Positions 32,792 through 62,735 of a stretch of 64,000 nt of DNA are shown piece after piece. The translations under genes and the position numbers were made by a program. The notes under the pieces were generated by a model. The model worked only from the letters and a program-made list of their open reading frames with translations. It ran no database searches and had not been told where the DNA came from. Every line of letters begins with the position of its first letter. Position 1 is the first letter of the stretch. The stretch is from Microbacterium pseudoresistens (lineage in GTDB: Bacteria > Actinomycetota > Actinomycetes > Actinomycetales > Microbacteriaceae): the NCBI RefSeq assembly GCF_013409745.1, contig NZ_JACCBH010000001.1, positions 1,736,001 through 1,800,000 on the forward strand, written 5' to 3'.

Positions 32792-32829
32792 ATCTCGCAT
32801 TGCGGAAGTCAATTTCCAAAATGAGTGGA
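32792..32829 (+). promoter_or_regulatory. Tandem 17-bp operators before guanine deaminase
   Basis: ATCTC-GCATTGC-GGAAG (32792-32808) and TTTCC-AAAATGA-GTGGA (32813-32829) are centred exactly 21 bp apart. CAGAAT (32788-32793) overlaps the first site by two bases as a -10-like box. The same architecture recurs at the other purine promoters. The interval is shared with the divergent mod operon. Confidence 0.6.
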
Positions 32830-32853
32830 CGGGGCGCCGTTTCCTTGTTACTC

Positions 32854-32901
32854 TCGATCGCGCCCCTGGGAGCCTCGCATGGCTCCGCGACAGGGGATCG
32901 A
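32854..32901 (+). promoter_or_regulatory. Structured 5' leader of guanine deaminase mRNA
   Basis: Three stacked helices are perfectly paired: TCGAT/ATCGA (32854-32858 with 32897-32901), CCCCTG/CAGGGG (32863-32868 with 32891-32896) and GGAGCC/GGCTCC (32869-32874 with 32881-32886). A CGCG bulge lies on one side, a GCGA bulge on the other, and the apical loop is TCGCAT. It ends 85 bp before the start codon. A cis-regulatory RNA is possible; it was not matched to a known class. Confidence 0.5.
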
Positions 32902-32986
32902 AGAATCGCACACCGTGGATCGACGAGGATCCGAGCCCGCCAGGGCTCCTCGCCAGGTCGCGAAACACAGCAAGGAAGCTTTCGAG

Positions 32987-33523
32987 ATGAACACCATCGG
33001 CCTCACCTCCACCGACAGCCCCGCTGACGGTTCGCAGACCGCCGGGCAGACGCCGGCCGAGTACCTCGCCCGCGCCGTCGCCCTCGCGACCGACAACGTC
33101 CGCAACGCGGGCGGCCCGTTCGGCGCCGTCGTCGTGGCCGCCGACGGCCGCGTCTTCGAGGGCGTCAACCGCGTCACCGCGAACCTCGACCCCTCCGCTC
33201 ACGCCGAGGTCAGCGCGATCCGCAACGCCTGCCAGGGTCTGGGGACGTTCGACCTCAGCGGTGCTGTGCTCTATACGAGCTGCGAGCCCTGCCCGATGTG
33301 CCTGGCGACCTCGCTCTGGGCCCGCATCGACAAGGTGTACTTCGCCGCCGACCGCAACGATGCCGCTGCCGCCGGATTCGATGACGCCGTCTTCTACCGC
33401 TACTTCGAGGGCGACGCCTCCGACCGCGAGATCATGCCGGTCGCGCGCGAGGAGCTCCCCCCGGTGCAGCGCGTCGAGCCGTTCACCGAGTGGAACGACA
33501 CCGTCGGTCGCACCGACTACTGA
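32987..33523 (+). CDS. guaD: Guanine deaminase (cytidine-deaminase-like fold)
   Basis: 178 aa from the ATG at 32987 with AAGGAAG upstream; longer starts would run into the leader structure and operators. It contains the zinc deaminase motifs HAEVSAIRNA (His and catalytic Glu) and SCEPCPMCL (two Cys), plus the EGVNRVTANLDPSAHAEV context typical of bacterial guanine deaminases. The expected reaction is guanine to xanthine, feeding xanthine dehydrogenase. The purine permease is downstream. Confidence 0.88.
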   Translation: MNTIGLTSTDSPADGSQTAGQTPAEYLARAVALATDNVRNAGGPFGAVVVAADGRVFEGVNRVTANLDPSAHAEVSAIRNACQGLGTFDLSGAVLYTSCEPCPMCLATSLWARIDKVYFAADRNDAAAAGFDDAVFYRYFEGDASDREIMPVAREELPPVQRVEPFTEWNDTVGRTDY

Positions 33524-33530
33524 CCAGCCT

Positions 33531-33560
33531 GAAGGGGTGCGGCGACCACCGCACCCCTTC
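33531..33560 (+). terminator. Terminator after guaD
   Basis: GAAGGGGTGCGG (33531-33542) pairs perfectly with CCGCACCCCTTC (33549-33560) across a 6-nt loop, 7 bp after the stop. The permease gene downstream therefore either depends on read-through or has its own promoter. The 160 bp before it contain two further small hairpins (near 33655 and 33680) but no operator pair. Confidence 0.8.
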
Positions 33561-33719
33561 GTTCGGCCCGCTGACCGGCACAACGGGTTCAGCGCACCGA
33601 TCACACCAAGACCTCCCGGGACGCGCACCTCCACCGTCGCCCCCGGAACACCGCCGGACGCCGTCCGGCATGACCCACGGAGCGACGACGCTCCGCGACC
33701 CGAGCAGGAGAGCACTTCT

Positions 33720-35192
33720 ATGTCTCAGACCGCCGAGATCCGCGAGGACGCGGAAATCCCCGATAACGCGCCGCAGACGCGCGGAATCGATCGATTCTTC
33801 GAGATCACGAAGCGGGGATCCACGATCCCGCAGGAGATCCGCGGAGGACTGGTCACCTTCTTCGCGATGGCGTACATCGTCATCCTCAACCCCATCATCC
33901 TCTCCGGGGGAACCGACGTCGCAGGCAACGCCCTCGACTTCGCGCAGGTCGGCGCCGTCACCGGTCTGACCGCCGGTGTCATGACCGTGCTCATGGGCCT
34001 CGTCGCCCGCGTGCCGTTCGCTCTGGCCGCCGGCCTCGGCATCAACTCGTTCCTCGCCGTCTCCGTGGTGGGCGACGTGACCTGGCCCGAAGCCATGGGC
34101 CTGGTGATGATCAACGGCGTCCTGATCGTGCTGCTCGGTGCCACCGGCATCCGCACCGCGATCTTCCACGCCGTGCCGCAGGCGCTGAAGGCGGCCATCA
34201 CGGTCGGCATCGGCCTGTTCATCGCCTTCATCGGAATGGTCGACGCCGGCTTCGTCAACCGCACCCCGGCCGGTCCGCCGGTGCAGCTGGGCGACGGCGG
34301 ATCGCTGAACTCGGTCCCGACCCTCATCTTCGTCGGCACGCTCGTGCTGATGGGCGTGCTGCTGGCCCGCAAGGTTCCCGGCGCCATCCTCATCGGCATC
34401 ATCGCCGGCACCGTGGTCTCGGTCATCGTCGAGGCCGTCATGAAGCTCGGCGCGCTCGACCCCGAGGGCAGCAACCCCGGCGGATGGCACATGACCGTGC
34501 CGGAGCTGCCCACGCAGTGGCTGAGCATCCCCGACTTCTCGCTGGTGGGTCAGTTCGACCTGTTCGGCTCGTTCGGCCGCATCGGCGCGCTGGCCGCCGT
34601 GATGCTCGTCTTCACCCTGCTGTTCACGAACTTCTTCGACGCCATGGGCGCCATGACCGGGCTCGCCCGAGAGGCCGGCATCGCCCGCAAGGACGCGACC
34701 TTCCCGCGTCTGCGCAGCGCCTTCGTCGTCGAAGGCGCCGGCGCCGTCATGGGCGGTGGCACGTCGAGCTCGTCTGCGACGGTCTTCATCGACAGTGCCG
34801 CCGGAATCGCGGAGGGCGCCCGCACGGGCCTCGCCTCGCTGGTCACCGGTGCTCTCTTCCTGCTGTCGATGTTCCTCACGCCGCTGACGGCCATCGTTCC
34901 GATCGAGGTCGCCGCCGCCGCGCTGGTCGTGGTGGGTGCGCTGATGATGTCGCAGATCCGCGAGATCAAGTTCAACAAGTTCGCCGTCGCCATGCCCGCG
35001 TTCCTCACGATCGTGACCATGCCGCTGACGTATTCGATCGCCAACGGCATCGGCGCGGGCTTCATCGCCTGGGCCCTCGTCAACGCCCTCGCCGGCCGTG
35101 CCAAGAAGGTGCACTGGCTGCTGTGGGTCGTCGCCCTCGGCTTCGCGGTGTACTTCGCGCGCGGCCCGATCGAGACGCTGCTGGCCGGCTGA
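33720..35192 (+). CDS. NCS2-family purine permease (AzgA/PbuG type)
   Basis: 490 aa, ATG after CAGGAGAG. Starts with FFEITKRGSTIPQEIRGGLVTFFAMAYIVILNP, which is characteristic of the hypoxanthine/guanine/adenine branch of NCS2. LAAGLGINSFLAV and GTSSSSATVFIDSAAGIAEGAR carry the substrate-site motifs. Fourteen membrane segments are predicted. Next to guanine deaminase, guanine or hypoxanthine uptake by proton symport is the likely role. Confidence 0.9.
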   Translation: MSQTAEIREDAEIPDNAPQTRGIDRFFEITKRGSTIPQEIRGGLVTFFAMAYIVILNPIILSGGTDVAGNALDFAQVGAVTGLTAGVMTVLMGLVARVPFALAAGLGINSFLAVSVVGDVTWPEAMGLVMINGVLIVLLGATGIRTAIFHAVPQALKAAITVGIGLFIAFIGMVDAGFVNRTPAGPPVQLGDGGSLNSVPTLIFVGTLVLMGVLLARKVPGAILIGIIAGTVVSVIVEAVMKLGALDPEGSNPGGWHMTVPELPTQWLSIPDFSLVGQFDLFGSFGRIGALAAVMLVFTLLFTNFFDAMGAMTGLAREAGIARKDATFPRLRSAFVVEGAGAVMGGGTSSSSATVFIDSAAGIAEGARTGLASLVTGALFLLSMFLTPLTAIVPIEVAAAALVVVGALMMSQIREIKFNKFAVAMPAFLTIVTMPLTYSIANGIGAGFIAWALVNALAGRAKKVHWLLWVVALGFAVYFARGPIETLLAG

Positions 35193-36511: not shown

Positions 36512-37315
36512 TCAGCCGCGGCCGAGGAAGGGCATGGCCGCGGCGGTGACAGTGAGGTGGGGCACGCTGACATCGAGGGGGAGACGGGCCAGACGCACGA
36601 CGAGACCGGCGACGTGCGCGACGTCCATCGTCGGCTCCGGGCGCACCGAGCCGTCGGCCTGCAGGGCGCCGCCGGCGACCAGGCCGTCGAGCAGCTCGGT
36701 GCGGGCGTTGCCGATGTCGAGCTGCGTGGCCGTGATGCCGTGGGGCCTGCCGTCGAGCTCGATCGATTTGGTGAGACCGGCGATCGCGTGCTTCGTGGTC
36801 GCGTACGCCACCGAGCGCGGACGCGGGGTCTGCGCCGCGATCGAGCCGTTGTCGATGATGCGCCCGCCCTGCGGATCCTGTGCGCGCATCTGCCGGAACG
36901 CAGCGCCGGCGCACAGCACCGAGCCGGTGACGTTGACGGCGAGCACCTGCAGCCACTCGGCGGGGTCGAGATCGCCGACGTCGACGCCAGGGCCCGACAT
37001 CCCCGCATTGTTGAACAGCACGTCGAGACGTCCGAAGCGGGCGACGTGCTGCGCCATCAGCCGTTCGACGGCATCCGGATCGGTGACATCGGTGGGAACG
37101 ACGAGGGCGTTCGGATGCAGCGCATCGTCGTTCGCGCCCGCATCGGGGGAGGCGGCCTCCTGCAGTGGCTCTGGGCGGCGGCCCGCGAAGGTCACGCCGA
37201 AGCCGTCGGCGAGCAGGGCGCGGGCGACCGCGCGGCCGATGCCGGTGCCGGCGCCGGTCACGATCGCGCTCGGGCGGGCGGTCTCAGGGGCCTCGGGGTC
37301 GGAATCCCCGCTCAC
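36512..37315 (-). CDS. SDR-family oxidoreductase at the end of the xdh operon
   Basis: 267 aa from a GTG that overlaps the xdhC stop (GTGA). The NAD(P) site is [15 protein letters not shown] and the NAG motif is NNAGMSG, but the catalytic motif reads YATTKHA with an upstream Ser in NGSIAAQ, a valid Ser-Tyr-Lys triad. Its coupling to xdhC ties it to purine oxidation; the substrate is unknown. Confidence 0.8.
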
Positions 37316-38133
37316 GAGACGGGGACCTCGACGGCCGCGTGCTCCTCGATGAGCTGGAGGATGCGCGCCGCGACGCTCACCGCGATCGCGGCGGGCTGCT
37401 TGCCGCTCACCTCGGGAACGCCGATCGGGGTGGTCACCCGCGTCAGCGCCTCGTCGTCGTGGCCGAGCTCGTGCAGCTTCTTGCGGAACCGCGCCCACTT
37501 CGAGGCCGAGCCGATGAGGCCGATCGATGCGAGACCCGGCGTGCGCAGGGCCTGATCGACCACGGCGAGGTCTTCGACATGGTCATGGGTCATCACGAGC
37601 ACGTGCGCACCCTCGGCGAGATCGGCCAGGGCCGACTCGGGCACGGGGGCGTGGATCGGGCGCACCCGGGCGACGGCGTCGTCGAGCACGCCGATGCGCG
37701 CCGGGTCGAGCATCTCGGCGCGCGAGTCGATGAGGTGCAGGTCGAGATCCTGACGGGAAAGGATGCGCGCGAGCTCGAGACCCACATGCCCCAGTCCGAA
37801 CACGGCGACGGTCGGGGTGACCCGCATCGGCTCCAACAGCATCGTGACCTCTCCTCCGCAACACTGCACACCGTACTCGGTCGTGGCCTTGTCGCTCAGG
37901 GTGAGCGTGAGCAGCTCGGGCTCGCCGGTGCCCCGGGCGAGCATCGTCCTGGCCTGATCGATCGCGGTCGCCTCGAGGTTCCCGCCGCCCACCGTGCCGA
38001 ACACGGCATCCGCGGACACGACCATCTTCGCCCCGCCGTTGCGCGGCGAATGCCCGCGCACCATCGCCAGGGTGACGATCACTGAGGGGCTGCGCTGCGC
38101 GCGCAGCCCCTGCAGTGCGTCGATCCAGTCCAT
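37312..38133 (-). CDS. xdhC: Xanthine dehydrogenase accessory protein XdhC
   Basis: 273 aa. N-terminal XdhC/CoxI domain with [15 protein letters not shown] and the GGGNLEA motif; CCGGE carries the conserved Cys pair used in cofactor sulfuration and delivery; the C-terminal Rossmann-like domain has [15 protein letters not shown] and MTHDHVEDL. It binds molybdenum cofactor and hands it to the XdhB subunit. It sits between xdhB (27 bp) and the SDR gene. Confidence 0.93.
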
Positions 38134-38160
38134 CAGTGCCTCATGCGGGGTGCGTGCGAC

Positions 38161-40545
38161 TCAGACGCCGGCGAGAACGCGGTCGGCGTCCTCGCTCGCG
38201 CCGGGGGCGTCGCCAGTCGTGCCCGCCTGCTGCGCCGCCTGCACGGCCCAGAACACGGCCTCCGGGGTCGCGGGGGATCCGAGGATCACCTCGTGGCCCT
38301 TCGGACCGAACTCGCCGACCGCCTGGCGGATGGCCTCGCGGGCGCTGAACGGGAGCATGAACGGCGGCTCGCCGACGGCCTTGGAGCCATACACCGCGCC
38401 GTCTTCACGGGCGTTCTCGAAGAGGCGCACGTGGAACTGCTCGGGCATCTCCGAGAAGCTGGGCAGCTTGTACGTGGACGCCGACTGGGTCTGCAGGCGG
38501 CCGCGATGCGGTCCGTCCGACTCGTCCCAGCGCAGCTCCTCCAGCGTCAGCCAGCCGAGGCCCTGCACGTACGCGCCCTCGATCTGTCCGATGTCGAGCA
38601 TCGGCGAGAGAGAGTCGCCCACGTCGTGCACGATGTCCACGCGGCGCACGCGGTATGCGCCGGTGAACTCGTCGACCTCGACCTCGCTGGCCGCGGCCCC
38701 GTAAGCGAAGTACTTGAAGGGCGAGCCCTGCATGATCTCCGGGTTCCAGTGCAGACCCTCGGTGCGGTAGTACCCGGCGGCGAACAGCTGCACGCGTTGC
38801 AGGTACGCCGCCTCGGCGACCTCGGCGAAGGGCAGCCGGGTGTCCTTGCCCAGGGCTGCGACGAAGCCGCCCGAGAAGCGCACGTCGCGCTCGTCGACGC
38901 CCAGCAGACGTCCGGCGACCTTGGCCATGCGCTCGCGGATCTGCTCGCACGCGTTCTTGACGGCGCCGCCGTTGAGGTCGGCGCCGGACGAGGCCGCCGT
39001 CGCCGACGTGTTGGGCACCTTGTCGGTGCGCGTCGGAGCCAGGCGCACCTGGTCCAGTCGCAGGCCGAGCGCGGTCGCGGCCACCTGCAGCATCTTCGTG
39101 TGCAGACCCTGGCCCATCTCGGTGCCGCCGTGGTTGATGAGCACCGAGCCGTCCTTGTAGACGTGCACGAGCGCACCGGCCTGGTTGAAGGCGGCGAAGT
39201 TGAACGAGATGCCGAACTTGATCGGCGTCATCGCCAGGCCGCGCTTGATGTGCGGGCTGGTGCGGTTGAACTCGGCGATCTCGGCCTTGCGGCGCTCGAT
39301 GTCGGCCTCGTCGGAGAGCTGGCCCCAGATCGTCTCCAGGCGGTCGGCGTCCTTCACGAGCTGGCCGTAAGGGGTGGACTGACCGGGCTGGTAGAAGTTC
39401 TTGCGGCGGAGCTCGATCGCGTCGATCCCCAGCTGCGGGGCGATGCGGCCCAGGATGTCTTCGATGAGGAAGATGCCCTGCGGGCCGCCGAAGCCGCGGA
39501 AGGCGGTGTTCGACGTCTTGTTCGTCTTGGCGATCCGGCCGTGCGCGTGCACGTTGGGAATCCAGTACGAGTTGTCGAGGTGGCAGAGAGCGCGGCCGAG
39601 CACGGGCTCGGACAGGTCGAGGCTCCATCCGCCGTCGCAGGTCAGCACCGTCTCCAGCGCCTGCAGGTAGCCGTTCTCGTCGACGCCGACCTTCCACGAG
39701 ATGTGGAAGGGGTGGCGCTTGCCGGTCATCGTGATGTCCTGCGTGCGGTTCAGGCGCACGCGCACAGGGCGGCCGGTGACCTTGGCGCCCAGCGCGGCGA
39801 TCGCGGCGAAGCCGTGCGACTGCATCTCCTTGCCGCCGAAGGCGCCGCCCATGCGCAGCGACTGCACGGTCACCTCGCTGGAGGTGATGCCGAGCACGTG
39901 CGCGGTGATCTCCTGCGCCTCGGAGGGGTGCTGCGTGGAACTCTGGACGAAGTACTGCCCCTCCGAGTCGCGGATCGCGAAGGCCGCGTGCGTCTCGAGG
40001 TAGAAGTGCTCCTGGCCGCCGAACTCGCTCACGCCCTCGAAGACGTGCGCGGCCTCGACCATCGCGGCCGCCGCGTCGCCGCGGGCGACCGTGCGGGCGA
40101 TGCCCTGGAAGGACTCCGCGTCGACGGCATCCTGCACCGTGATCAGCGAGGGCAGCGGCTCGTACTCGACCGTGACCTTCTCGGCGCCCTTGCGAGCCGC
40201 CTCCTGCGTCTCCCCGAGCACCCAGACCAGGGCGTGGCCGTAGAACATCGCCTCGGACGGGAACAGCGGCTCGTCGTGCTTGATGCCCGCGTCGTTCACG
40301 CCCGGCACGTCGTCGGCGGTGAGCACGTGCACGACGCCTGGTACCTCGTAGGCGCCGGAGACGTCCACGCGCACCTTGGCGTGCGCGTTGGTGGACTGCA
40401 CGGGCCACGCCGTCAGCGTGCCCGGATGCTGGGTCGCGAGGTCGTCGGTGTACATCGCGGCGCCGGTGACGTGCAACCGAGCGCTCTCGTGCGCGGCGGG
40501 GTCTCCGACGATCGGGTTGGCGGGGCGGTCAGCGAGAGCGCTCAT
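38161..40545 (-). CDS. xdhB: Xanthine dehydrogenase, molybdopterin-binding subunit
   Basis: 794 aa from the ATG at 40545, which overlaps the xdhA stop. The frame extends upstream inside xdhA and is not used. The large subunit has GAAMYTDDL, GGAFGGKE (Moco loop), FRGFGGPQGIFLIED and HGGTEMGQGLHTKM with the active-site region, and a late KAVGEPPFML carrying the catalytic Glu (GEPP). It oxidises hypoxanthine and xanthine to urate. Confidence 0.95.
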   Translation of the reverse strand: MSALADRPANPIVGDPAAHESARLHVTGAAMYTDDLATQHPGTLTAWPVQSTNAHAKVRVDVSGAYEVPGVVHVLTADDVPGVNDAGIKHDEPLFPSEAMFYGHALVWVLGETQEAARKGAEKVTVEYEPLPSLITVQDAVDAESFQGIARTVARGDAAAAMVEAAHVFEGVSEFGGQEHFYLETHAAFAIRDSEGQYFVQSSTQHPSEAQEITAHVLGITSSEVTVQSLRMGGAFGGKEMQSHGFAAIAALGAKVTGRPVRVRLNRTQDITMTGKRHPFHISWKVGVDENGYLQALETVLTCDGGWSLDLSEPVLGRALCHLDNSYWIPNVHAHGRIAKTNKTSNTAFRGFGGPQGIFLIEDILGRIAPQLGIDAIELRRKNFYQPGQSTPYGQLVKDADRLETIWGQLSDEADIERRKAEIAEFNRTSPHIKRGLAMTPIKFGISFNFAAFNQAGALVHVYKDGSVLINHGGTEMGQGLHTKMLQVAATALGLRLDQVRLAPTRTDKVPNTSATAASSGADLNGGAVKNACEQIRERMAKVAGRLLGVDERDVRFSGGFVAALGKDTRLPFAEVAEAAYLQRVQLFAAGYYRTEGLHWNPEIMQGSPFKYFAYGAAASEVEVDEFTGAYRVRRVDIVHDVGDSLSPMLDIGQIEGAYVQGLGWLTLEELRWDESDGPHRGRLQTQSASTYKLPSFSEMPEQFHVRLFENAREDGAVYGSKAVGEPPFMLPFSAREAIRQAVGEFGPKGHEVILGSPATPEAVFWAVQAAQQAGTTGDAPGASEDADRVLAGV

Positions 40546-42023
40546 GCCGTGGCCTCCTTCGAGTCCGAGTGCTTGGTGGTGCTGTAGAGCTTGAGCAGGG
40601 CCGAGCCGAGCATGAGCGAGCGGTAGTCGGCGCTCGCGCGGTGATCGGACATCGGGGTGCCCTCGCCCTTGAGGATGGCCGATGCGGACTGGACCGTGGC
40701 GATGTTCCACGGCTTGCCGATCAGCGCCTCTTCGGTGGCGCGGGCGCGCAGCGGGGTGGCGGCGACGCCGCCGAGCCCGATGCGGGCGGCGGTGACGATG
40801 TTCTCGTCGTCGATGTCGAGCGCAAACGCGACGGCGACACTGGAGATGTCGTCGAAGCGGCGCTTGGCGATCTTGTGGAACGCGGTGACCTCGGCCAGCG
40901 GCAGCGGGATGCGGATGGCGCGGATGAGCTCGTCGGCCGCGCGCACCGTCTGGCGGTAGCTGGTGAAGTACTCCGACAGCTCGACCTCGCGCTCGCCGAG
41001 CACCGAGGCCAGCACGACTCGCGTGCCGAGGGCCAGCAGCGCCGGCGGGGTGTCGCCGATGGGGGAGCCGGTGCCGAGGTTGCCCCCGAAGGTGCCGCGG
41101 TTGCGGATGAGGCGAGAGGCGAACTGCGGGAACAGCTGCGCGAGCAGGGGCACGCGGCCGGCGAGGCGGCGCTCGACCTCGGACAGCGGCAGGGCCGCGC
41201 CGATCTCGATCATGTCGTCGCCGATCTCCAGCGTGCGCAGCTCCTCGAGCTGCTCGATGGCGACGACGAGCGGCGCGCGGCGGCCGCGGATGTTGACCTC
41301 GACGCCGAAGTCGGTCGAGCCGGCGACGAGTACGGCATCCGGCTCGTCGTGGATCAGCTGCAGGGTGTCGGTGAGCGTGGCGGGGCGGATGAAGCGCGCC
41401 CCGTCGATCTCGGCGTCGGTGGCCACGGCGACCGGGGCCGGCTTGTCGAGGCGCTGGCGCAGTGGGTCATCGGCCTCGGGGGCACCCAGCGAGTACGCCG
41501 CATCGCGGATCGGACGGTAGCCCGTGCACCGGCACAGGTTGCCGCTGAGCGCGTGCAGATCGAACCCGTTCGGGCCATGCTCGGGGTCGTCGTGCGCGTC
41601 GTCGTCATGCACGGGGCAGGCGTCGTCATCGGCGGCGACGCGGTCTTCGCGGTAGTACTCGCCCGCCATGCTGCAGGCGAACCCGGGGGTGCAGTAGCCG
41701 CACTGCGATCCGCCCGCCTCGGCGAGCTTCTCCTGCACGGGATGCAGATCGTCGATGGTGCCCAGGCCCTCGGCGGTGACGACCTCCTGGCCGTTGAGCG
41801 CGTAGACGGGCACGAGGCACGCGTTCACGGGCGTCCAGCTTGTCCCGCCGTCGACGGCGGGGGTGGCCAGCAGCATCGCGCAGGCGCCGCACTCGCCTTC
41901 GGCGCAGCCCTCCTTGCTGCCGGACAGGCCGGTGTCGCGCAACCAGTCGAGCGCGGTGGCGTGCGCGGGAACGCCCGCGAGGCCGCGGCGTTCTCCGTTG
42001 ACAGTGACGGCGATGTCGTTCAT
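40542..42023 (-). CDS. xdhA: Xanthine dehydrogenase small subunit (2Fe-2S and FAD)
   Basis: 493 aa. The N-terminal plant-type ferredoxin domain has GCAEGECGACAML; the second 2Fe-2S domain has GSQCGYCTPGF and LCRCTGYRPI. The FAD domain follows from about residue 205, with LVAGSTDFGVEV and the GNLGTGSPIGD motif. An unusual Asp/His-rich insert (about residues 131-150) separates the two cluster motifs. Electrons pass from XdhB to FAD and NAD. The operon reads xdhA-xdhB-xdhC-SDR. Confidence 0.95.
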   Translation of the reverse strand: MNDIAVTVNGERRGLAGVPAHATALDWLRDTGLSGSKEGCAEGECGACAMLLATPAVDGGTSWTPVNACLVPVYALNGQEVVTAEGLGTIDDLHPVQEKLAEAGGSQCGYCTPGFACSMAGEYYREDRVAADDDACPVHDDDAHDDPEHGPNGFDLHALSGNLCRCTGYRPIRDAAYSLGAPEADDPLRQRLDKPAPVAVATDAEIDGARFIRPATLTDTLQLIHDEPDAVLVAGSTDFGVEVNIRGRRAPLVVAIEQLEELRTLEIGDDMIEIGAALPLSEVERRLAGRVPLLAQLFPQFASRLIRNRGTFGGNLGTGSPIGDTPPALLALGTRVVLASVLGEREVELSEYFTSYRQTVRAADELIRAIRIPLPLAEVTAFHKIAKRRFDDISSVAVAFALDIDDENIVTAARIGLGGVAATPLRARATEEALIGKPWNIATVQSASAILKGEGTPMSDHRASADYRSLMLGSALLKLYSTTKHSDSKEATA

Positions 42024-42354: not shown

Positions 42355-42420
42355 CTTTCGCATTATGAAAGCTAGCTTCTGAGATATGGAAAGAATACGA
42401 CGCCGAGAGCGTCTCGTCAA
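42355..42420 (-). promoter_or_regulatory. Promoter and tandem operators of the xdh operon
   Basis: On the minus strand, TTGACG (42420-42415), 17 bp, TATTCT (42397-42392). Operators in plus orientation: CTTTC-GCATTAT-GAAAG (42355-42371, perfect arms) and CTTCT-GAGATAT-GGAAA (42376-42392), centred 21 bp apart. The near site starts at the last base of the -10, so a bound protein would block transcription start. Confidence 0.7.
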
Positions 42421-43360: not shown

Positions 43361-43398
43361 GGGCGGTCCTTTCATCGGCGGGCACGACGCGGCGAAGT

Positions 43399-43420
43399 TA
43401 TCCGCATCGCGGAAATCATA
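43399..43420 (-). promoter_or_regulatory. Single operator and -10 of the first iclR gene
   Basis: TATCC-GCATCGC-GGAAA (43399-43415) overlaps a minus-strand -10, TATGAT (43420-43415), by one base, the same geometry as at the xdh promoter. No clear partner 21 bp away and no good -35 are seen. Autoregulation is the simple reading. Confidence 0.5.
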
Positions 43421-53157: not shown

Positions 53158-54713
53158 CACGGGTTCTCCGCGCCCGTGACGGCTTCGGTCGAGTCGGCGG
53201 CTTCGTTCTGCGGGAGGACGATGACCTTGCCGTTCGAGATGATCAGGTGGAGGATGACTGCGAGTCCGGCGCCGATGAACCAGGAGAAGTCCTTCAGTGG
53301 GCCGAAGCCGGGGCCGACGGCGATCACGAGGGCGATGAGACCGGACGGGATGAAGGCCCACAGCGTCTTCAGGCTCACACCGCGGTTGTAGTAGTAGATC
53401 GACTCCGGCGTCGGGAGGAACATGTGCCGCAGCACGAAGCGCTGACGACGGACGATGAAGAAGTCCGCGACCATGATGCCGAAGAGCGGTCCTATCAGGG
53501 CGCCCAGGCTGCCGAGGAAGTAGCCAACGACGATCGGGCTGTTGAAGTAGTTCCAGGGCGTGACGACCACCGCGATGATCGCGGTGGCGATGCCGGCGCG
53601 GCGAAACGAGATGCGGCCAGGGGCGAGGTTGGTCACGTCAAAGGCGGCCGAGACGAAGTTCGAGATGACGTTCACGCCGACTGTGGCTAAGGTGAAGCCG
53701 CCGGCGAAGATATAGAACAGCAGGTCGTTCTCGACGTGGGTCATCAGGATGCCTGGGTCCTTGAGCGTCTCGTGGTCGACGACGAGCACCTGCACGGCGG
53801 CACCGGTGGTGAGCACCGAGGTGACGGCGAACAGCGTCCAGTTCAGCGGGGCGCCGAGGATGGTGCCGATCTTGACCGTGCGCGAGTCGCGGGTGAAGCG
53901 GGCGAAGTCGGAGTAGTTCAGCATGACCGGGGCCAGCTGCGAAACGACCTGCGCGGCGACGAGCGCGATGAGGCCGATCTTGGCGCCGGTGGCGAGTGGG
54001 GTGTCACCGGTTCCGCTGAACCAATCGAACTTCCAGTCGGCCTCGTTCAGGAAGTAGACCATGGCGCCGAGCATCGTGATCCAGATGATCGGGCCGGCGA
54101 AGCCCTGGACGTGTCGGATAGCCTCCATTCCCCTCTGCACGATGATCAGCTGCAGGAGCGAGAGGAGGAGGAAACAGATCCAGCCGCCCAGGTGGAGCCC
54201 GAGGAAGTGGATCGACTCCGGAGCGCTGAGGTCCCCGAACGGCGACCAGATGCGGGTGATCACCGCGTTGAGCGCGATCGAGGCCAGGTAGGTCTGCACA
54301 CCGTACCAGGCGATGGCGACGACGCCGCGGATGACGGCGGCGATGTTGGCGCCCCAGATGCCCCAGGTGATGCGGCTGATCACCGGGTACGGGCTACCCG
54401 TCTTCTGGCCGATGAGGCCCGACAGCACGCAGCCGAGGCTGAGGATGATGCAGCCGACGAAGATGCCGATCGTCATGTCGAAGGCGCTGATGCCCATGGT
54501 GAGGAAGATGCCCGCCGCCCAGGTGTAACTCGCCGCGTTGTGAGCGACGTTCATCCAGAGGGATATCAGGTGGTAGGTGTTCCAGGTCCGCTTCTGGGGA
54601 GGAACTGGTGCGAGATCCTCGTTGTATAAGCGTCCCTCTGGGTCCGCGGCCTGGAGCGTTTTGAAAGGTTCTTCGTTCCATCGAACCTGGGTGTCGCTGG
54701 GGACGTTGTCCAT
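53157..54713 (-). CDS. NCS1-family nucleobase/hydantoin/allantoin transporter
   Basis: 518 aa, twelve predicted helices. NEDLAPVPPQKRTWNTYHLISLWMNVAHNAASY marks the NCS1 family; VMLNYSDFARFTRDSRTVKIGT and the PWNYFNSPIVVGYFLGS segment are also conserved. The family imports uracil, thiamine precursors, hydantoins, allantoin and purines by Na or H symport. First gene of the six-gene minus-strand operon and divergent from an IclR gene, so the imported compound is likely the pathway's starting substrate. Confidence 0.88.
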   Translation of the reverse strand: MDNVPSDTQVRWNEEPFKTLQAADPEGRLYNEDLAPVPPQKRTWNTYHLISLWMNVAHNAASYTWAAGIFLTMGISAFDMTIGIFVGCIILSLGCVLSGLIGQKTGSPYPVISRITWGIWGANIAAVIRGVVAIAWYGVQTYLASIALNAVITRIWSPFGDLSAPESIHFLGLHLGGWICFLLLSLLQLIIVQRGMEAIRHVQGFAGPIIWITMLGAMVYFLNEADWKFDWFSGTGDTPLATGAKIGLIALVAAQVVSQLAPVMLNYSDFARFTRDSRTVKIGTILGAPLNWTLFAVTSVLTTGAAVQVLVVDHETLKDPGILMTHVENDLLFYIFAGGFTLATVGVNVISNFVSAAFDVTNLAPGRISFRRAGIATAIIAVVVTPWNYFNSPIVVGYFLGSLGALIGPLFGIMVADFFIVRRQRFVLRHMFLPTPESIYYYNRGVSLKTLWAFIPSGLIALVIAVGPGFGPLKDFSWFIGAGLAVILHLIISNGKVIVLPQNEAADSTEAVTGAENP

Positions 54714-54827: not shown

Positions 54828-54902
54828 AGTCCGTATCGCGGACTATGATAGTCACGATGTGGACTGCTCGCCATCATGACACCGTCTCGGATCGCTGTCA
54901 AG
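54828..54902 (-). promoter_or_regulatory. Tandem operators and promoter of the NCS1 operon
   Basis: Operators AGTCC-GTATCGC-GGACT (54828-54844, perfect arms) and TAGTC-ACGATGT-GGACT (54849-54865) are centred 21 bp apart. On the minus strand, TTGACA (54902-54897), 18 bp, CATGAT (54878-54873) would start transcription inside the operators. TATCAT (54850-54845) is an alternative -10. The divergent iclR gene shares the region. Confidence 0.6.
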
Positions 54903-54986
54903 CAGGCTCGAACAGTGGTTCACTCGAGCGCTCGCATGTTGTGGAAGTAGGGTGTGGACGACACTGGATCGATCGAAGGAGCGCGC

Positions 54987-55787
54987 ATGACTGGGACGTC
55001 GAACTCGCCCAAGTCGGGTGGGAGTGTTCAGTCGATCGAGCGCATGTTCGAAGTGCTCGAGCTCATTACGGACGCGGGGGGTGACGTCTCTCTGGTGGAA
55101 CTGACCGGCGCGACGGAGCTTCCTCGGCCGACGATTCATCGAATCCTCCGAACCCTGATCAAGCTGGGGTACGCGCGTCAGCTGCCGAGTCGGCGGTATG
55201 CGCTTGGCCCACGGCTCATCCGCATAGGAGCGGGAGCCAACCGGCAGTTTGGTGCCCTTGCTCGCCCACAGCTTGAGCAGCTGGTTGAGGATCTCGGAGA
55301 AAGCGTCAACATGGCCATCCTGGACGTCGACCTCATCGTGTATGTTGCGCACGTGTCGTCGCAGCACTCCATGCGCATGTTCACAGAGGTCGGGCGCCGT
55401 GCCAGCCTGCACAACACTGGTGCGGGCAAGGCGATCCTCGCTCAGTTGCCGGACGACACGGTGCGCAGCATCATCGGCAGGACCGGTATGGCCGCGCTGA
55501 CCGAGCACAGCATCACCGATCTCGACGACCTCCTTGCCGAGCTCGAACGCATCCGCGCACGAGGCTATGCGATCGATGAGCAGGAGCAGGAGATCGGCGT
55601 TCGCTGCTATGCGATGGCCGTGCCCAATGCCCCGACGCCGACCGCGGTGTCCGTCTCGGGACCGGTCTCCCGAGTCGATGGGGAGTTCGGTGAGCGCGCG
55701 GTCCCATTCCTGCGTCGAGCGACGCGTTCCATCGCGGACGAGTCCGGTGCGGGCGCGGTCGCCGACTCCGGAGCCGGTATCCGCTGA
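54987..55787 (+). CDS. Second IclR-family regulator
   Basis: 266 aa from the ATG with GAAGGA six bases upstream; a GTG eleven codons earlier is possible. The winged helix (VSLVELTGATELPRPTIHRILRTLIKLGYARQ) differs little from that of the first IclR (43360), while the effector domain (GAGKAILAQL, GYAIDEQEQEIGVRCYAMAV) diverges more. The two proteins probably share or compete for operators. It is divergent from the NCS1 operon and upstream of the hyi operon. Confidence 0.92.
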   Translation: MTGTSNSPKSGGSVQSIERMFEVLELITDAGGDVSLVELTGATELPRPTIHRILRTLIKLGYARQLPSRRYALGPRLIRIGAGANRQFGALARPQLEQLVEDLGESVNMAILDVDLIVYVAHVSSQHSMRMFTEVGRRASLHNTGAGKAILAQLPDDTVRSIIGRTGMAALTEHSITDLDDLLAELERIRARGYAIDEQEQEIGVRCYAMAVPNAPTPTAVSVSGPVSRVDGEFGERAVPFLRRATRSIADESGAGAVADSGAGIR

Positions 55788-55842: not shown

Positions 55843-55907
55843 TTGACGTCCTCGTGGCTATCGCATAGACTTTCGCTGTACAAAAGTTTTAGTTCATAAT
55901 GTGGACT
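55843..55907 (+). promoter_or_regulatory. Promoter and tandem operators of the hyi operon
   Basis: TTGACG (55843-55848), 17 bp, TAGACT (55866-55871). Operators CTTTC-GCTGTAC-AAAAG (55870-55886) and AGTTC-ATAATGT-GGACT (55891-55907) are centred 21 bp apart and overlap the -10 end and the expected start point near 55878. The start codon lies 32 bp downstream. Confidence 0.72.
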
Positions 55908-55938: not shown

Positions 55939-56745
55939 ATGACGTACACGGTGAACTGCTCCATCCTCCTCACCGAGCTGCCCCTGCTCGAGCGCCCTGC
56001 GGCCGCCAAGGCCGCCGGCTTCGACGCCGTCGAGTTCTGGTGGCCTTTCGCCGAGGCCGTGCCCTCGGATGCGGATGTCGACGCCTTCATCGGCGCGATC
56101 CGCGACGCCGGCGTCAGCCTGACCGGCCTGAACTTCTTCGCCGGCGACATGCCCGGCGGCGACCGCGGCCTGGTGTCGTGGCCGGCGCGTTCGGGCGAGT
56201 TCCGCGACAGCATCGCGGTGCTCACCGCCATCGGCGAGAAGCTCGGCACCAAGGGCTTCAACGCCCTCTACGGCAACCGCGTCGACGAGTCGACGGCCGC
56301 AGAGCAGGATGCGATCGCCGTCGAGAACCTGGCGATCGCCGGACGCGCCGTCGCGGCCCTCGGCGGCACCGTGCTGCTCGAGCCCGTCAGCGGCGCCGAC
56401 CGCTACCCGCTGCTGACCGCGGCCGACGCCGTGGGGGTCATCGAGCGCGTGCGCACCGAGACGGGCGTCGACAACGTCGCCCTGCTCGCCGACTTCTACC
56501 ATCTCGCCGTCAACGGCGACGATGTCCCGGCTGTCATCGAGGCGCATGCCGCCTCCTTCGGCCACATCCAGATCGCCGACGCCCCCGGCCGCGGTGCTCC
56601 CGGCACGGGCGAGCTTGCGCTGGAGGCATGGATCGCCCGCAGCCGCGAGCTCGGCTACGCCGGCCCGATCGGCCTGGAGTACAAGACTCCCGCGGACGAA
56701 GCCTTCACCTGGCTGTCTGCTCAGACCACCGACGCCGCGCGCTGA
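55939..56745 (+). CDS. hyi: Hydroxypyruvate isomerase family protein
   Basis: 268 aa xylose-isomerase-like TIM barrel. TVNCSILLTELPLLERPAAAKAAGFDAVEFWWPF is the family start; LLEPVS, LLADFYHLAVNGDD and FGHIQIADAPGRGAPGTGEL carry the Glu, Asp and His metal and base residues. It interconverts hydroxypyruvate and tartronate semialdehyde beside the glycerate pathway. First gene of hyi-glxR-gcl-(glxK-allB)-bcp. Confidence 0.92.
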   Translation: MTYTVNCSILLTELPLLERPAAAKAAGFDAVEFWWPFAEAVPSDADVDAFIGAIRDAGVSLTGLNFFAGDMPGGDRGLVSWPARSGEFRDSIAVLTAIGEKLGTKGFNALYGNRVDESTAAEQDAIAVENLAIAGRAVAALGGTVLLEPVSGADRYPLLTAADAVGVIERVRTETGVDNVALLADFYHLAVNGDDVPAVIEAHAASFGHIQIADAPGRGAPGTGELALEAWIARSRELGYAGPIGLEYKTPADEAFTWLSAQTTDAAR

Positions 56746-56776
56746 CCCGCCGCACCAACGTAAGGGAATCGAAATC

Positions 56777-57655
56777 ATGACGAACATCGCCGTCATCGGA
56801 CTCGGCATCATGGGCTTGCCCATGGCCACCAACCTCGTCAACGCCGGGCACACCGTCGTCGGCTACAACCGTTCGCAGGAGGCGATCGACAAGCTCGCCG
56901 CCGCCGGCGGCGTCGCGGCCTCGAGCATCGCCGACGCCGTCAAGGACGCCGACGTCATCATCACCATGGTCCCCGACTCCCCGGATGTCGCCGCCGTCGT
57001 GCAGGGCCCGGAGGGCGTGTTCGCGAACGCCAAGGCCGGCGCCCTGTGGATCGACAACTCCTCGATCCGTCCCGACGTGGCCAAGGAGCTCGCCGAGGAG
57101 GCCGTGGCCGCCGGTTTCGGCGCCGTCGACGCCCCCGTCTCGGGGGGCGAGCAGGGTGCCATCGACGGCGTCCTGTCGATCATGGTTGGCGGTTCGGACG
57201 AGGACTTCGCCAAGGCCGAGCCCGTGCTGAACGTCATCGGCAAGACCATCGTCCACGTGGGCCCGGCCGGCTCCGGCCAGACGGTCAAGGCCGCCAACCA
57301 GCTCATCGTCGCCGTGAACATTCAGGCGCTGAGCGAGGCCGTCGTCTTCCTCGAGGCCTTCGGCGTCGACACCGACGCGGCACTGAAGGTGCTCGGCGGC
57401 GGTCTGGCCGGCTCCAAGGTCCTCGACCAGAAGGGGCAGAAGATGCTTGATCGCGACTTCGCCCCCGGGTTCCGCCTTGCCCTCCACAACAAGGATCTGG
57501 GCATCGTCACCTCGGCGGCGCGCTCGGCCGGGGTCACCGTCCCGCTCGGCGCTGCGGTCGCGCAGCTCGTGAACGCCCTCGTCGCCCGCGGTGACGGCGG
57601 CCTGGACCACTCCGGTCTGTTCAAGCTCACCACGGAGCTCTCCGGCCGCGACTGA
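56777..57655 (+). CDS. glxR: 2-hydroxy-3-oxopropionate (tartronate semialdehyde) reductase
   Basis: 292 aa from the ATG at 56777. Beta-hydroxyacid dehydrogenase: [20 protein letters not shown] (NAD site), [14 protein letters not shown] (substrate site), [13 protein letters not shown] with the catalytic Lys, and a [16 protein letters not shown] end segment. It reduces tartronate semialdehyde from Gcl to D-glycerate. Confidence 0.95.
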
Positions 57656-57740
57656 TCGTCGGCCACCCCACATCTCCACACCTCGGTCGCTGCATTCGAC
57701 GCGCGTCGCCGGCAGCAGCCGAGAGAACAAAGGACACATC

Positions 57741-59528
<1,788 letters not shown>

Positions 59529-59546
59529 CCAAACGGAGCATCACCC

Positions 59547-62090
59547 ATGCGTGTCCTCATCGCCCCTGACAAGTTCAAAGGTTCGCTGTCTGCGGCAGAG
59601 GCCGCGGAGCGGATCGCCGAGGGCATTCATCGCGTCGATCCGTCGACCCAGGTCGTGGTTCTCCCCGTCGCCGACGGCGGGGAGGGCACGGTGGAGGCCG
59701 CGCTGGCGGCCGGTTTCGCACGGCACACCGCCGTCGTGGCCGGTCCCGGCGCGGTTCCGGTGGAGGCCTCCTTCGCCCTGCGCGGAACGGATGCCGTGGT
59801 CGAGATGGCCCAGGCATCCGGCCTCGACCTCGTGGCCGAGGACGAGCGCGACGCCCGCGCCGCGACGAGCCTCGGCACGGGTCAGCTGCTGCGCGCGGCG
59901 CTGGATGCCGGCGCTCGGCGCATCGTGCTCGGGGTGGGCGGCAGCGCCTCCACCGACGGCGGCGCCGGCGTGCTGCAGGGTCTCGGCGCGCGGCTGCTCG
60001 ATGCCGCAGGCGTCGAGATCGCCCTCGGCGGCGGTGCGCTCGCCGACCTCGACCGCATCGATCTCTCCGAGCTCGACCCCCGCGTGGCCGACGTCGAACT
60101 GATCCTCGCCGCCGACGTCGACAACCCGCTGCGCGGAGAGAACGGCGCCCCTGCGGTCTTCGGCCCGCAGAAGGGCGCATCCGAGCGCGATGTCGCGACG
60201 CTGGACGACGCGCTCGGACGCTTCGTCGAGGTGCTCGACGCCGTCGGCGACGACCTCGCCATCATCCCCTCCATCGCCGCGGAGATGCCCGGTGCCGGAG
60301 CCGCCGGAGGCGTCGGCTACGCCGCGCTCCTCCTCGGCGCCGTGCGCCGACCGGGCGTGGACGTCGTGCTCGAGCTCACCGGTGTCGCCGAGGCGCTGCA
60401 GGGTGTCGACGCCGTCATCACCGGCGAGGGAAGCCTGGACGGGCAGAGCCTGGGCGGCAAGACGCCCGTGGGCGTCGCCCGCGCCGCGGCACGCGCCGCC
60501 ATTCCCACCTATGCCGTCTGCGGCCGCTCCACGCTGAGCGCCGAGGAGAGCGAGAAGGCGGGCTTCGCCGGCGTGCGCGCCCTGGCCGACATCGAGCCGG
60601 ACGCGAAGCGCAGCATGGCTGAAGCCGGCCCCCTGCTCGCCGACATCAGCGAGGCGCTGGCCGCGCAGATCCGTCCGCTCGGCTTCGACCTCGTGCTGCG
60701 CGGTCGCGCGCTGATCGACGGTGCCATCACGTCGGTGGAGATCGGCGTGCGGCAGGGGCGCATCGCCCGCGTCGCCCCCGCAGGAGCCGACCTGGAAGCG
60801 CCCGAGATCGTCGATGCCGCCGCCGACGAGCTGATCCTTCCCGGGCTCGTCGACACCCACGTGCACGTGAACGACCCCGGTCGCACCGAGTGGGAGGGCT
60901 TCGAGTCCGCCACCCGCGCCGCGGCCGCCGGCGGCGTGACGACCATCGTCGACATGCCGCTGAACAGCATCCCGCCGACCGTCACCGTCGAGGCGCTCGA
61001 GATCAAACGCGCCACCGCCGAGGGCAACGTCTTCGTCGACGTCGGCTTCTGGGGCGGCGTGATCCCCGGAAACCTCGAAGACCTCTCCCCACTGCACGAG
61101 GCCGGCGTCTACGGGTTCAAGTGCTTCCTGCTCCCGTCGGGGGTCGACGAGTTCCCGGAGGTCTCGGTCGACGAGATGCGCGATGCCATGGGGGTGCTCG
61201 CGGGGCTCGGCTCGATGATCATCGTGCACGCCGAAGACGCGCACATCATCGATGAGTCGGGCAAGACCGCGCTGACCGGTCCGGCCTACGCCGACTTCCT
61301 CGCCTCGCGCCCGCGCTCCGCCGAGGATGCGGCGATCGCCGAGGTCATCGCCGCCGCTGCCGAGACAGGGGCGCGTGCGCACATCCTGCACCTGTCCAAC
61401 GGCGACTCCATCGACCGTATCGCGGCCGCGCGGGCGGAGGGCATCGACCTCTCGGTCGAGACCTGCCCGCACTACCTGACGCTGTCGGCCGAAGACATCC
61501 CCTCCGGCGCCACGGCGTTCAAATGCTGCCCGCCGATCCGCGAGGACGACAACCGCGGCGCGCTGTGGAAGGGGCTCGAGGACGGCGTCATCGACTACAT
61601 CGTCTCCGATCACTCGCCCTCCACGCCGGAGATGAAGTACGCCGGAGACGGCGACTTCTCGATCGCGTGGGGCGGCATCGCCTCGCTGCAGTTGGGGCTT
61701 CCCGTGGTGTGGACGGAGGCGCGTCGTCGTGGAATCCCGCTCGAGCGCGTGGTCGCCCTCATGTCGCAGGCGCCCGCCGACCGCGTGGGCCTGCGAGACA
61801 AGGGCCGCATCGTTCAGGGCGCGGCGGCGGACTTCGCCGTCTTCGCCCCGGAGGAGACGTTCACGGTGGACGCGCGCGTGCTCTCGCACCGGCATCCGAT
61901 CACGCCGTACGACGGGCGTGAGCTCACCGGCGTCGTGCGCGCCTCGTACCTGGCCGGTGAGCGGATCGATCCGCAGGTTCCGCGCGGCCGTCTGCTGCGC
62001 AACGACGGAGGCGTGACGCCGCGCCTGCGCCGACCCCTCCGAAACCGACTGACCACGCCCCACGGGGCGGAGAAGGAGAAGACCGCATGA
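59547..62090 (+). CDS. Fused glycerate kinase-allantoinase
   Basis: 847 aa in one uninterrupted frame. Residues about 1-375 are a GlxK-type glycerate kinase (MRVLIAPDKFKGSLSAAEAA, PVADGGEGTVEAAL, GVGGSASTDGGAGVLQGLG). From about residue 380 (FDLVLRGRALIDGAITSVEIG) an allantoinase/dihydroorotase-type amidohydrolase follows with LPGLVDTHVHVNDPGRTEWEGF, GVYGFKCFLLPSG (carbamylated Lys), HAED, HILHLSNGD, ETCPHYLTL and SDHSPSTPEMK. There is no stop and no ribosome site at the junction. It joins the ring-opening and final steps of the pathway. Confidence 0.92.
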   Translation: MRVLIAPDKFKGSLSAAEAAERIAEGIHRVDPSTQVVVLPVADGGEGTVEAALAAGFARHTAVVAGPGAVPVEASFALRGTDAVVEMAQASGLDLVAEDERDARAATSLGTGQLLRAALDAGARRIVLGVGGSASTDGGAGVLQGLGARLLDAAGVEIALGGGALADLDRIDLSELDPRVADVELILAADVDNPLRGENGAPAVFGPQKGASERDVATLDDALGRFVEVLDAVGDDLAIIPSIAAEMPGAGAAGGVGYAALLLGAVRRPGVDVVLELTGVAEALQGVDAVITGEGSLDGQSLGGKTPVGVARAAARAAIPTYAVCGRSTLSAEESEKAGFAGVRALADIEPDAKRSMAEAGPLLADISEALAAQIRPLGFDLVLRGRALIDGAITSVEIGVRQGRIARVAPAGADLEAPEIVDAAADELILPGLVDTHVHVNDPGRTEWEGFESATRAAAAGGVTTIVDMPLNSIPPTVTVEALEIKRATAEGNVFVDVGFWGGVIPGNLEDLSPLHEAGVYGFKCFLLPSGVDEFPEVSVDEMRDAMGVLAGLGSMIIVHAEDAHIIDESGKTALTGPAYADFLASRPRSAEDAAIAEVIAAAAETGARAHILHLSNGDSIDRIAAARAEGIDLSVETCPHYLTLSAEDIPSGATAFKCCPPIREDDNRGALWKGLEDGVIDYIVSDHSPSTPEMKYAGDGDFSIAWGGIASLQLGLPVVWTEARRRGIPLERVVALMSQAPADRVGLRDKGRIVQGAAADFAVFAPEETFTVDARVLSHRHPITPYDGRELTGVVRASYLAGERIDPQVPRGRLLRNDGGVTPRLRRPLRNRLTTPHGAEKEKTA

Positions 62091-62563
62091 GCGAGACCGC
62101 AACCAGGCTCGAGGTCGGCCAGGACGCGCCGGACTTCACGCTGAACGACGCGCAGGGAACGCCGCAGTCGCTGGCCGATCATCGCGGCACTCCGGTGATC
62201 GTGTACTTCTACCCCGGCGCGTTCACACCCGGCTGCACCACGGAGGCGTGCGACTTCCGCGACAACCTCGCCTCCTTCCAGGGCGCCGGCTACACGGTTC
62301 TGGGCATCTCGCCCGACCCGGTCGCCAAGCTCGCCGAGTTCGCCGAGGCAGAGCAGCTGGCCTTCCCGCTGCTGTCCGACGAGGACTCGGCAGTGGCCAA
62401 GGCCTGGGGCGCGTGGGGCGAGAAGACCGTGCAGGGTCGTACCTTCGACGGTCTGATCCGCTCGACGTTCGTGATCGACGCCACCGGGCGCATCCAGATC
62501 GCCGAGTACGCGGTCGACGCGCAGGGCCACGTCGCGCGACTGCGCGAGGCGCTCGGCCTGTAG
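62087..62563 (+). CDS. bcp: Peroxiredoxin (Bcp/PrxQ type)
   Basis: 158 aa. APDFTLNDAQGTPQSLADHRG and PGAFTPGCTTEACDFRD with peroxidatic Cys and resolving Cys five residues on, as in PrxQ; SDEDSAVAKAWGAWGEK and RSTFVIDATGRI complete the fold. Its start overlaps the allantoinase stop by 4 bp, so it is translated with the purine operon. Urate oxidase, encoded downstream, makes hydrogen peroxide. Confidence 0.94.
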   Translation: MSETATRLEVGQDAPDFTLNDAQGTPQSLADHRGTPVIVYFYPGAFTPGCTTEACDFRDNLASFQGAGYTVLGISPDPVAKLAEFAEAEQLAFPLLSDEDSAVAKAWGAWGEKTVQGRTFDGLIRSTFVIDATGRIQIAEYAVDAQGHVARLREALGL

Positions 62564-62570
62564 TCCGGAC

Positions 62571-62655
62571 AACCCCGCTCGAGACCCCGCTCTCTCGTCG
62601 ATACCCCTGATTGTGCGCATGCACAGGCAGGCGTCTCGACGACAGGGCGGGGTTT
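62571..62655. terminator. Long multi-tier hairpin after the hyi operon
   Basis: Nested pairings: AACCCCGC/GCGGGGTT (62571-62578 with 62647-62654), TCGTCGA/TCGACGA (62595-62601 with 62636-62642), CCTG/CAGG (62606-62609 with 62628-62631) and TGTGC/GCACA around GCAT (62612-62625). It separates bcp from the uraD promoter and probably terminates the operon. From memory, similar long hairpins recur in Microbacterium intergenic regions. Confidence 0.55.
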
Positions 62656-62669
62656 CGGCGTCGATGGGG

Positions 62670-62735
62670 TTGCCATGCGCGAAGAGGGTTGATAGAGTTA
62701 CCGCATGCTGAAATAACAGTTCCACGATACGAAAG
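62670..62735 (+). promoter_or_regulatory. Promoter and tandem operators of the uraD operon
   Basis: TTGCCA (62670-62675), 17 bp, TAGAGT (62693-62698). Operators TTACC-GCATGCT-GAAAT (62698-62714) and GTTCC-ACGATAC-GAAAG (62719-62735) are centred 21 bp apart; the first begins at the last -10 base, as at the xdh promoter. Confidence 0.72.

Follow-up and report, generated by a model that had tools for sequence, protein, structure and literature searches.

A 64,000-nucleotide stretch of the Microbacterium pseudoresistens genome (contig NZ_JACCBH010000001.1, positions 1,736,001 to 1,800,000; hereafter the window) harbors genes for the oxidation of purines to glyoxylate together with two paralogous genes for regulators of the IclR family, IclR1 and IclR2. 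Six intergenic regions of the window each carry two 17-bp imperfect palindromes, and these pairs are very probably the operators at which the AllR-like IclR1 and IclR2 repress purine-to-glyoxylate oxidation as well as glyoxylate disposal. The assignment draws on the position, motif, spacing and orientation of the sites, on their recurrence before orthologous genes of related bacteria and on their overlap with predicted promoters.

Paired sites in the window

The initial annotation of this DNA had listed six pairs and a single site before iclR1; all were found where it had placed them, and the centres are exactly 21 bp apart in 6/6 pairs (named below by the centre of the left site). The first pair (32792-32829, i.e., sites 32792-32808 and 32813-32829) is located between modA (minus strand) and the gene of a guaD-like deaminase (plus strand), the second (42355-42392, minus strand) 5' of xdhABC, the third (43487-43524) between iclR1 (minus) and maeB (plus), and the fourth (54828-54865) between the gene of an NCS1 permease (minus) and iclR2 (plus). 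The remaining pairs, both assigned to the plus strand, precede hyi-glxR-gcl-glxK/allB (55870-55907) and uraD-uraH-uricase (62698-62735). GGACT is found in three of the four half-sites at 54828-54865, and the half-sites at hyi include one GGACT and one GAACT. The copy before iclR1 (43399-43415, centre 43407) was confirmed as a site, but it is not strictly single, as a weak partner is found 21 bp away at 43420-43436 (15.6 + 4.3 bits). A candidate seventh pair (27233; 27225-27262), between moaD/moeA-like (minus) and moeB-like (plus) genes, scores 9.7 bits with a weight matrix from the window and 18.8 bits with a matrix from relatives. No strand was assigned to the first, third and fourth pairs, to the 43407 site or to this candidate.

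The right sites, when reverse-complemented, fit the same asymmetric motif as the left sites, TTTCCGCATnnTGGAAA, and the two sites of each pair are therefore arranged head to head, their GCAT parts being in the outer halves. This orientation was the better one for 12 of 13 sites in leave-one-out scoring, the exception being 55878. The initial annotation had described two copies per pair without this polarity.

Pairs were searched for in the window and its flanks (20 kb on each side), in 20-kb stretches at 1.27 Mb and 1.65 Mb, in an evenly spread 400-kb sample of the genome that served as background, and in loci of 3 to 4 kb surrounding chosen genes. Each pair was scored with a matrix derived from the five remaining pairs, which yielded 21.1-38.5 bits and, within the window, rank 1st for 42363 and 6th for the other five. 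Only one position of the 400-kb sample (L204 9434, approximately 1,989,434 in the genome) exceeded one pair, i.e., 54836, with 21.6 vs 21.1 bits, while the other five pairs were unbeaten and the second-best background position reached at most 14.4 bits. This position itself holds a 21-bp pair, to which the relatives' matrix gives 24.9 bits, and is probably also an operator, because it stands directly 5' of another IclR-family gene, opposite an rRNA methyltransferase-like gene. A matrix made exclusively from relatives recovered all six pairs of the window (16.7-42.5 bits), with 54836 (16.7) below 27233 (18.8), 43474, a shifted register of the 43495 pair (18.0), and 43407 (17.1).

A single-site pattern allowing up to three mismatches was found at 22 places in the genome, compared to 7 for a reversed control; this genome-wide pattern, which was also run on 59 other genomes, was too unspecific and caught 3/13 of the window sites. 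Outside the window's own sites, just one of the 22 places gave a pair above 14 bits: a 22.8-bit site that is flanked at 21 bp on either side by a weak partner (1.8 and 6.0 bits), directly 5' of a pbuX-type xanthine permease gene. A motif-agnostic search for double palindromes 5' of 35 other IclR genes gave a spacing of 21 in 5 cases, compared to 0.45 expected; these hits resemble GC-rich noise and were not used. With the relatives' matrix the same 35 loci yielded one 21-bp pair (L255, the same place as L204) and two strong pairs at 20 bp, without a clear peak.

Recurrence in related genomes and the predicted mechanism

The relatives were represented by the best 80 of 586 confirmed candidate loci with an orthologous IclR, from genera that include Microbacterium, Arthrobacter, Pseudarthrobacter, Cryobacterium, Kocuria, Cellulosimicrobium, Georgenia and Streptomyces. 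At least one pair above 18 bits was found in 76 of these loci, with 190 pairs in total (169 distinct) and none in a same-size Markov control. The four loci without such a pair by the window matrix are L135, L155, L182 and L185, of which all except the Streptomyces locus L182 have a pair of at least 20 bits by the relatives' matrix. Another 11 relatives, each with an orthologue or homologue of IclR, were all found to carry 21-bp pairs that score above 17 bits (11/11; the best in 3 Mb of Markov sequence reached 18.2 bits), and 25/25 further same-genus ortholog loci carry a pair 5' of iclR (29-44 bits); the latter loci originate from a search of 295 genomes, in which an AllR-clade protein was found at E 1e-85 in 42 genomes. 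The own-genome background, the Markov control and the relatives' loci thus show that 21-bp pairs are not equally frequent in unrelated DNA.

The consensus of the 169 distinct pairs consists of WTTYCRYATWRYGRAAW, an AT-rich spacer of 4 bases and a nearly mirrored copy of the first site, and its palindromes match the published group-1 palindrome WTTYCRYW3RYGRAAW. The published range of 18-22 nt between centres likewise includes the distance observed here, i.e., 21 bp in 6/6 window pairs and a sharp peak in relatives. At a higher threshold, convergent pairs in relatives were found 155 times at 21 bp, 18 times at 20 and 5 times at 22, with at most 25 at any other distance between 10 and 60 bp, and a tandem or divergent reading of the near-palindromic sites also peaks at 21. 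A partner at exactly 21 bp was found for 185/266 strong single sites, compared to at most 14 for every other distance.

The pairs of relatives also recur before the same genes. A script that assigned a pair to any reference gene starting within 450 bases placed 153/190 pairs, of which 78 are beside iclR (in 71/80 loci) and 9 beside iclR only; the iclR/maeB gap alone holds 60 of the 190. When the neighbors of the remaining 37 pairs were read, 29 more could be placed: at uricase (18, two of which overlap its 5' end), HpcH/HpaI (4), 8-oxoguanine deaminase (2), malate synthase G (glcB) and the lactate/glycolate permease LctP (2), an aceE-like gene (1), a uraD fusion (1) and guaD (1). In all, 182/190 pairs from the weight-matrix scan of relatives adjoin iclR or genes of the purine/glyoxylate cluster. 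The purine regulon proposed in the initial annotation is borne out in relatives, whose pairs precede maeB/iclR, hyi, uraD, guaD, xdhA, allB and uricase. The aceE-like case, where a pair stands directly 5' of a pyruvate dehydrogenase gene in one Arthrobacter (L141:17327), would fit a route that takes glyoxylate through malate and pyruvate to acetyl-CoA. Glycerate kinase (L107) and xanthine permease (L110) were considered as pair-controlled genes and left uncounted, the pairs being at the 3' side of both.

Promoters had earlier been claimed at three of the window pairs, and these were recovered: TTGACG-17-TATTCT at xdhA (on the minus strand), TTGACG-17-TAGACT at hyi and TTGCCA-17-TAGAGT at uraD, each with a -10 element that begins 5 (xdhA), 4 (hyi) or 5 (uraD) bases before the pair and ends in its first bases. 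No start-point promoter was found where one was looked for at guaD, maeB/iclR1, iclR2/NCS1 and 43407; at maeB, the -10 of a TTGAAG-18-TAGTAT match falls between the two sites, in the spacer. In relatives, 62/226 upstream regions have a -35/-10 match. In 43 of these matches the -10 begins 2-5 bases ahead of the pair (hyi 32, uraD 4, xdhA 3, maeB 3, glxR 1), where a shuffled control gave a mean of at most 0.5 per position, and in 14 it begins at +18, i.e., in the spacer (maeB 12; shuffled control 3.6); a spacer-located -10 is found in 12/62 maeB upstream regions of relatives. Where the -10 is at its edge, a pair covers the start point; where the -10 is in the spacer, the pair straddles the promoter. 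Both arrangements are compatible with repression. The earlier view of repression at the start point agrees with the predicted overlap at hyi, uraD and xdhA, but does not extend to maeB, where the predicted -10 is in the spacer.

In the proposed mechanism, one dimer would bind each 17-bp imperfect palindrome (about WTTYCRYATNRYGRAAW), and two head-to-head sites with centres 21 bp apart would accommodate a tetramer on a single face of the DNA. This tetramer would cover the start point at hyi, uraD and xdhA, where the -10 hexamer ends in the first bases of the pair, and at maeB it would straddle the promoter. The main text of Suvorova and Gelfand (2021, PMC8222616) explains tandem sites by a tetramer whose two dimers sit on the same face, in agreement with the two dimers on one DNA face suggested in the initial annotation. 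The repressor would be released by a small acid of the pathway, most likely glyoxylate. The Asp, Cys, Ser and Ser residues of Escherichia (E.) coli AllR (207, 217, 234, 236) and IclR (212, 222, 239, 241) are kept in both IclR1 and IclR2; because these four residues presumably line the small-acid pocket, glyoxylate is the first candidate for the ligand. The regulon content agrees with such a ligand in that glyoxylate could be disposed of through gcl-glxR-glxK and, in some relatives, through malate synthase, malic enzyme and the aceE-like protein.

A number of observations weigh against this assignment. At least one other IclR gene of the genome has a similar 21-bp pair (L204), and the motif is therefore not exclusive to the purine regulon, while a third NCS2 permease gene and both classical malate synthase genes of the genome showed no pair in the scanned loci. 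Spacings other than 21 bp are populated in relatives (25 pairs at 26 bp, 24 at 14 and 24 at 19 bp at the higher threshold), and 164/226 upstream regions are without a recognizable promoter. Eight of the 190 pairs do not precede a called cluster gene; three of these, which are strong and found in Microbacterium (L110:14684, L108:14593 and L114:17067), lie between convergent 3' ends, i.e., between an SDR gene and a permease or uraD-uraH-cluster gene. Because the 80 loci were picked by their IclR gene, the operator beside iclR counts as a single orthologous site that was seen repeatedly; the other gene contexts are more independent. Finally, IclR1 and IclR2 reach 120.5 and 105 bits with the E. 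coli-type AllR model NF007548, below its cut-off of 406 bits, and their best NCBIfam model, BhcR (NF045644; 199.9 and 178.7 bits), has a cut-off of 350 bits, which neither protein reaches. BhcR is a glyoxylate-responsive regulator of the beta-hydroxyaspartate cycle.

The sites were originally picked by eye, and single sites with up to three mismatches are common in the genome (the 22 places, compared to 7 for the reversed control), which might suggest chance or compositional matches found by a pattern-seeking reader; the leave-one-pair-out scores, the 400-kb background and the 80 loci of other genomes render such an origin extremely improbable. Purine genes in bacteria are also controlled by other known regulators, and the link between regulator and pair is here deduced from sequence, such that the pairs could in principle bind, e.g., a TetR- or PucR-type protein with the IclR genes as bystanders. 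We consider this very unlikely given that the pair is found beside iclR itself in 25/25 same-genus and 71/80 named loci, and still stands 5' of iclR in two relatives (G024 and G030) that encode a more distant homologue (51-56% identity) and have no reference purine genes in the analyzed stretch around it. In addition, the motif is of the IclR group-1 WTT-11-AAW class described in the main text of PMC8222616.

It is also unlikely that the two sites of a pair are independent dimer operators, i.e., that 21 bp is a mild preference which does not reflect a cooperative tetramer. This explanation would account for the 81/266 strong single sites that have no 21-bp partner scoring above 5 bits and for the similar pairs at 20 bp in two other IclR loci, but it fits poorly with the sharp peak in relatives (155 convergent pairs at 21 bp vs 18 at 20 and 5 at 22) and with the report, in the main text of PMC8222616, that IclR proteins are dimers or tetramers.

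IclR1, IclR2 and a possible division of the operators

Both regulators score above the Pfam cut-offs for HTH_IclR and IclR_C (63.6 and 139.2 bits for IclR1, encoded at 42605-43375 on the minus strand; 52.2 and 137.8 bits for IclR2, encoded at 54954-55787 on the plus strand), and they are 60-62% identical to each other. In a phylogenetic tree IclR1 groups with Leucobacter and Agromyces sequences (100/100), while IclR2 is found with the Microbacterium clade (99/90) on a long branch (0.81); Microbacterium resistens also has one IclR of each kind. The block from guaD to allE shares its gene content with Agromyces, and IclR1 may therefore have come in with this block.

The recognition helix of IclR1, LPLPTIHRLLRTL, is the consensus one, found in 74/91 sequences of relatives and in 25/25 further same-genus sequences. 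IclR2 instead has LPRPTIHRILRTL, and its Arg, at a helix position that reads DNA, is absent from the 91 relatives' sequences and from the 25 further same-genus orthologues; an IclR2 orthologue closer than approximately 75% was not found in 366 genomes of the genus. Based on the spacing of conserved residues we mapped this Arg to position 28 of Suvorova and Gelfand, i.e., Arg47 of TtgV in their Table 5, and the numbering of site positions against theirs was also mapped in the present analysis. According to the main text of that study (PMC8222616), Arg28 correlates with G/C at positions 8/24 of the site and, for the GTT-11-AAC subgroup, also at 9/23. In the window, C at site position 9/23 is found in 5/8 half-sites of the two iclR2-adjacent pairs vs 1/16 among those of the remaining four (one-sided Fisher 0.007; this comparison leaves out the lone site 43407 and the 27233 candidate), and in 3/4 outer half-sites beside iclR2 vs 8/388 in relatives. 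The exact sequence GGACT occurs in 4/8 half-sites of the two pairs beside iclR2, and in relatives in 3/760 half-sites of all 190 pairs (2/676 among distinct pairs).

These observations raise the possibility, which we put forward tentatively and consider somewhat less than even, that the purine regulon is split between two AllR paralogues through one helix residue and one base pair. IclR1 would then have kept the helix of its clade together with GGAAA-type operators (guaD, xdh, maeB, uraD), while IclR2 would have gained Arg28 as its adjoining pairs (NCS1/iclR2 and hyi-gcl) switched to G/C at 9/23 (GGACT). The mixed hyi pair, with an outer left half of the old type and an outer right half of the new, could be readable by both proteins. 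The operator sample consists of two pairs and the comparison was chosen after the sites had been seen, both of which count against a split, as does the coexistence of C-type inner half-sites with Leu28 in the same genus (19/50); the operator change is therefore only partly new. IclR1 and IclR2 may differ in which of the six pairs they bind.

Gene content of the window and comparison with known systems

In the guaD-to-allE block, a guaD-like gene with a cytidine/guanine-deaminase fold (32825-33523, plus strand; a mechanical open reading frame (ORF) whose true start is probably further 3') is followed by the gene of an NCS2 (Xan_ur_permease) transporter (33261-35192, plus), in which the N-terminal part of the ORF does not align to relatives. 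The top NCBIfam match of the guaD-like protein is TadA, below the cut-off of that model, and the guaD label is plausible. The xanthine dehydrogenase genes xdhC, xdhB and xdhA (37312-42023, minus) were identified from profile matches, as were modA, modB and an AhpC-like gene. Beside the xanthine dehydrogenase block, genes for molybdenum cofactor and molybdate transport (moeA-, moaD-, moeB- and moaA-like; modA and modB) occupy 25658-32684, and the region upstream of modA also contains the guaD pair.

Next to iclR1, on the plus strand, are found maeB for malic enzyme (43497-45035, a mechanical ORF to which most relatives align from near residue 34), a gene for a DUF6986 protein that resembles HpcH/HpaI aldolases (45310-46569) and allE for ureidoglycine aminohydrolase (46467-47465). 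The DUF6986 gene, here between those of malic enzyme and AllE, adjoins or is within 2 kb of malic enzyme in six relatives (G013, G004, G039, G057, G040 and G047), and its product is possibly a glyoxylate-condensing enzyme. Its role as a stand-in for a missing malate synthase was considered and dropped, as both malate synthases are encoded elsewhere in the genome, without pairs. A short IS4/5-type transposase domain (DUF4096; 47861-48250) is located between the IclR1 and IclR2 blocks, within a stretch whose GC content is 66% compared to 70% and 68% on its flanks.

The second block comprises the gene of the NCS1 allantoin/purine permease (53157-54713, minus), iclR2, and hyi, glxR, gcl and a fused glxK-allB (55939-62090, plus). 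In the fusion, glycerate kinase and allantoinase form an 847-residue protein (59547-62090) without an internal stop, and the two matches are found as separate genes in the relatives G013, G004, G040 and G051. The genes uraD and uraH (62792-63654, plus) are followed by a uricase match that begins at approximately 63726, less than 300 bases before the window ends, and continues beyond it.

For Microbacterium, Arthrobacter and their kin, the analysis provides a named set of operators for a purine-to-glyoxylate regulon, and these operators tie uncharacterized genes to the regulon, i.e., those of the DUF6986 aldolase-like protein (beside malic enzyme), the HpcH/HpaI protein and the AhpC-like protein. 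The split, if true, would be a compact example from nature in which a duplicated repressor has changed in concert with its operators, at a contact that was predicted earlier from statistics.

Among characterized regulators, AllR of Streptomyces coelicolor (Navone et al. 2015) is reportedly, judged by the title of that report, likewise an actinobacterial repressor of the IclR family that acts on genes of the allantoin pathway. A protein from a Streptomyces other than S. coelicolor (L182), 58% identical to IclR2, is found in the tree described above, and its locus has a strong single site (20.9 bits) and no pair above 15 bits. E. coli AllR belongs to the same family, keeps the four pocket residues and has its gene beside gcl, hyi, glxR and allantoin genes. 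Its published site is KTTGGAAWAWTWTTCCAAC (main text of PMC8222616). The allantoin and aceBAK regions of E. coli showed no strong 21-bp pair of the present motif (best 9.5 and 12.4 bits), and with any spacing the best pair of the allantoin cluster (19.1 bits at 20 bp) lies inside allW.

A literature search, mostly without subscription papers, found no paper on IclR with purine catabolism and allantoin, nor one (from 2005) on the IclR family with glyoxylate carboligase and purine, and the word "purine" is absent from the main text of PMC8222616. That text describes the motif class WTTYCRYW3RYGRAAW and tandem sites 18-22 nt apart in 94 orthologous groups of the IclR family; the paired-operator architecture is therefore known, and the novel part is the possible split in specificity between two repressors. 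Compared to the group-1 operators described there, the pairs of the window have the same motif class and tandem centre distance, but differ in that the spacing is fixed at 21 bp, the motif is asymmetric and head to head, and two paralogous repressors are present.

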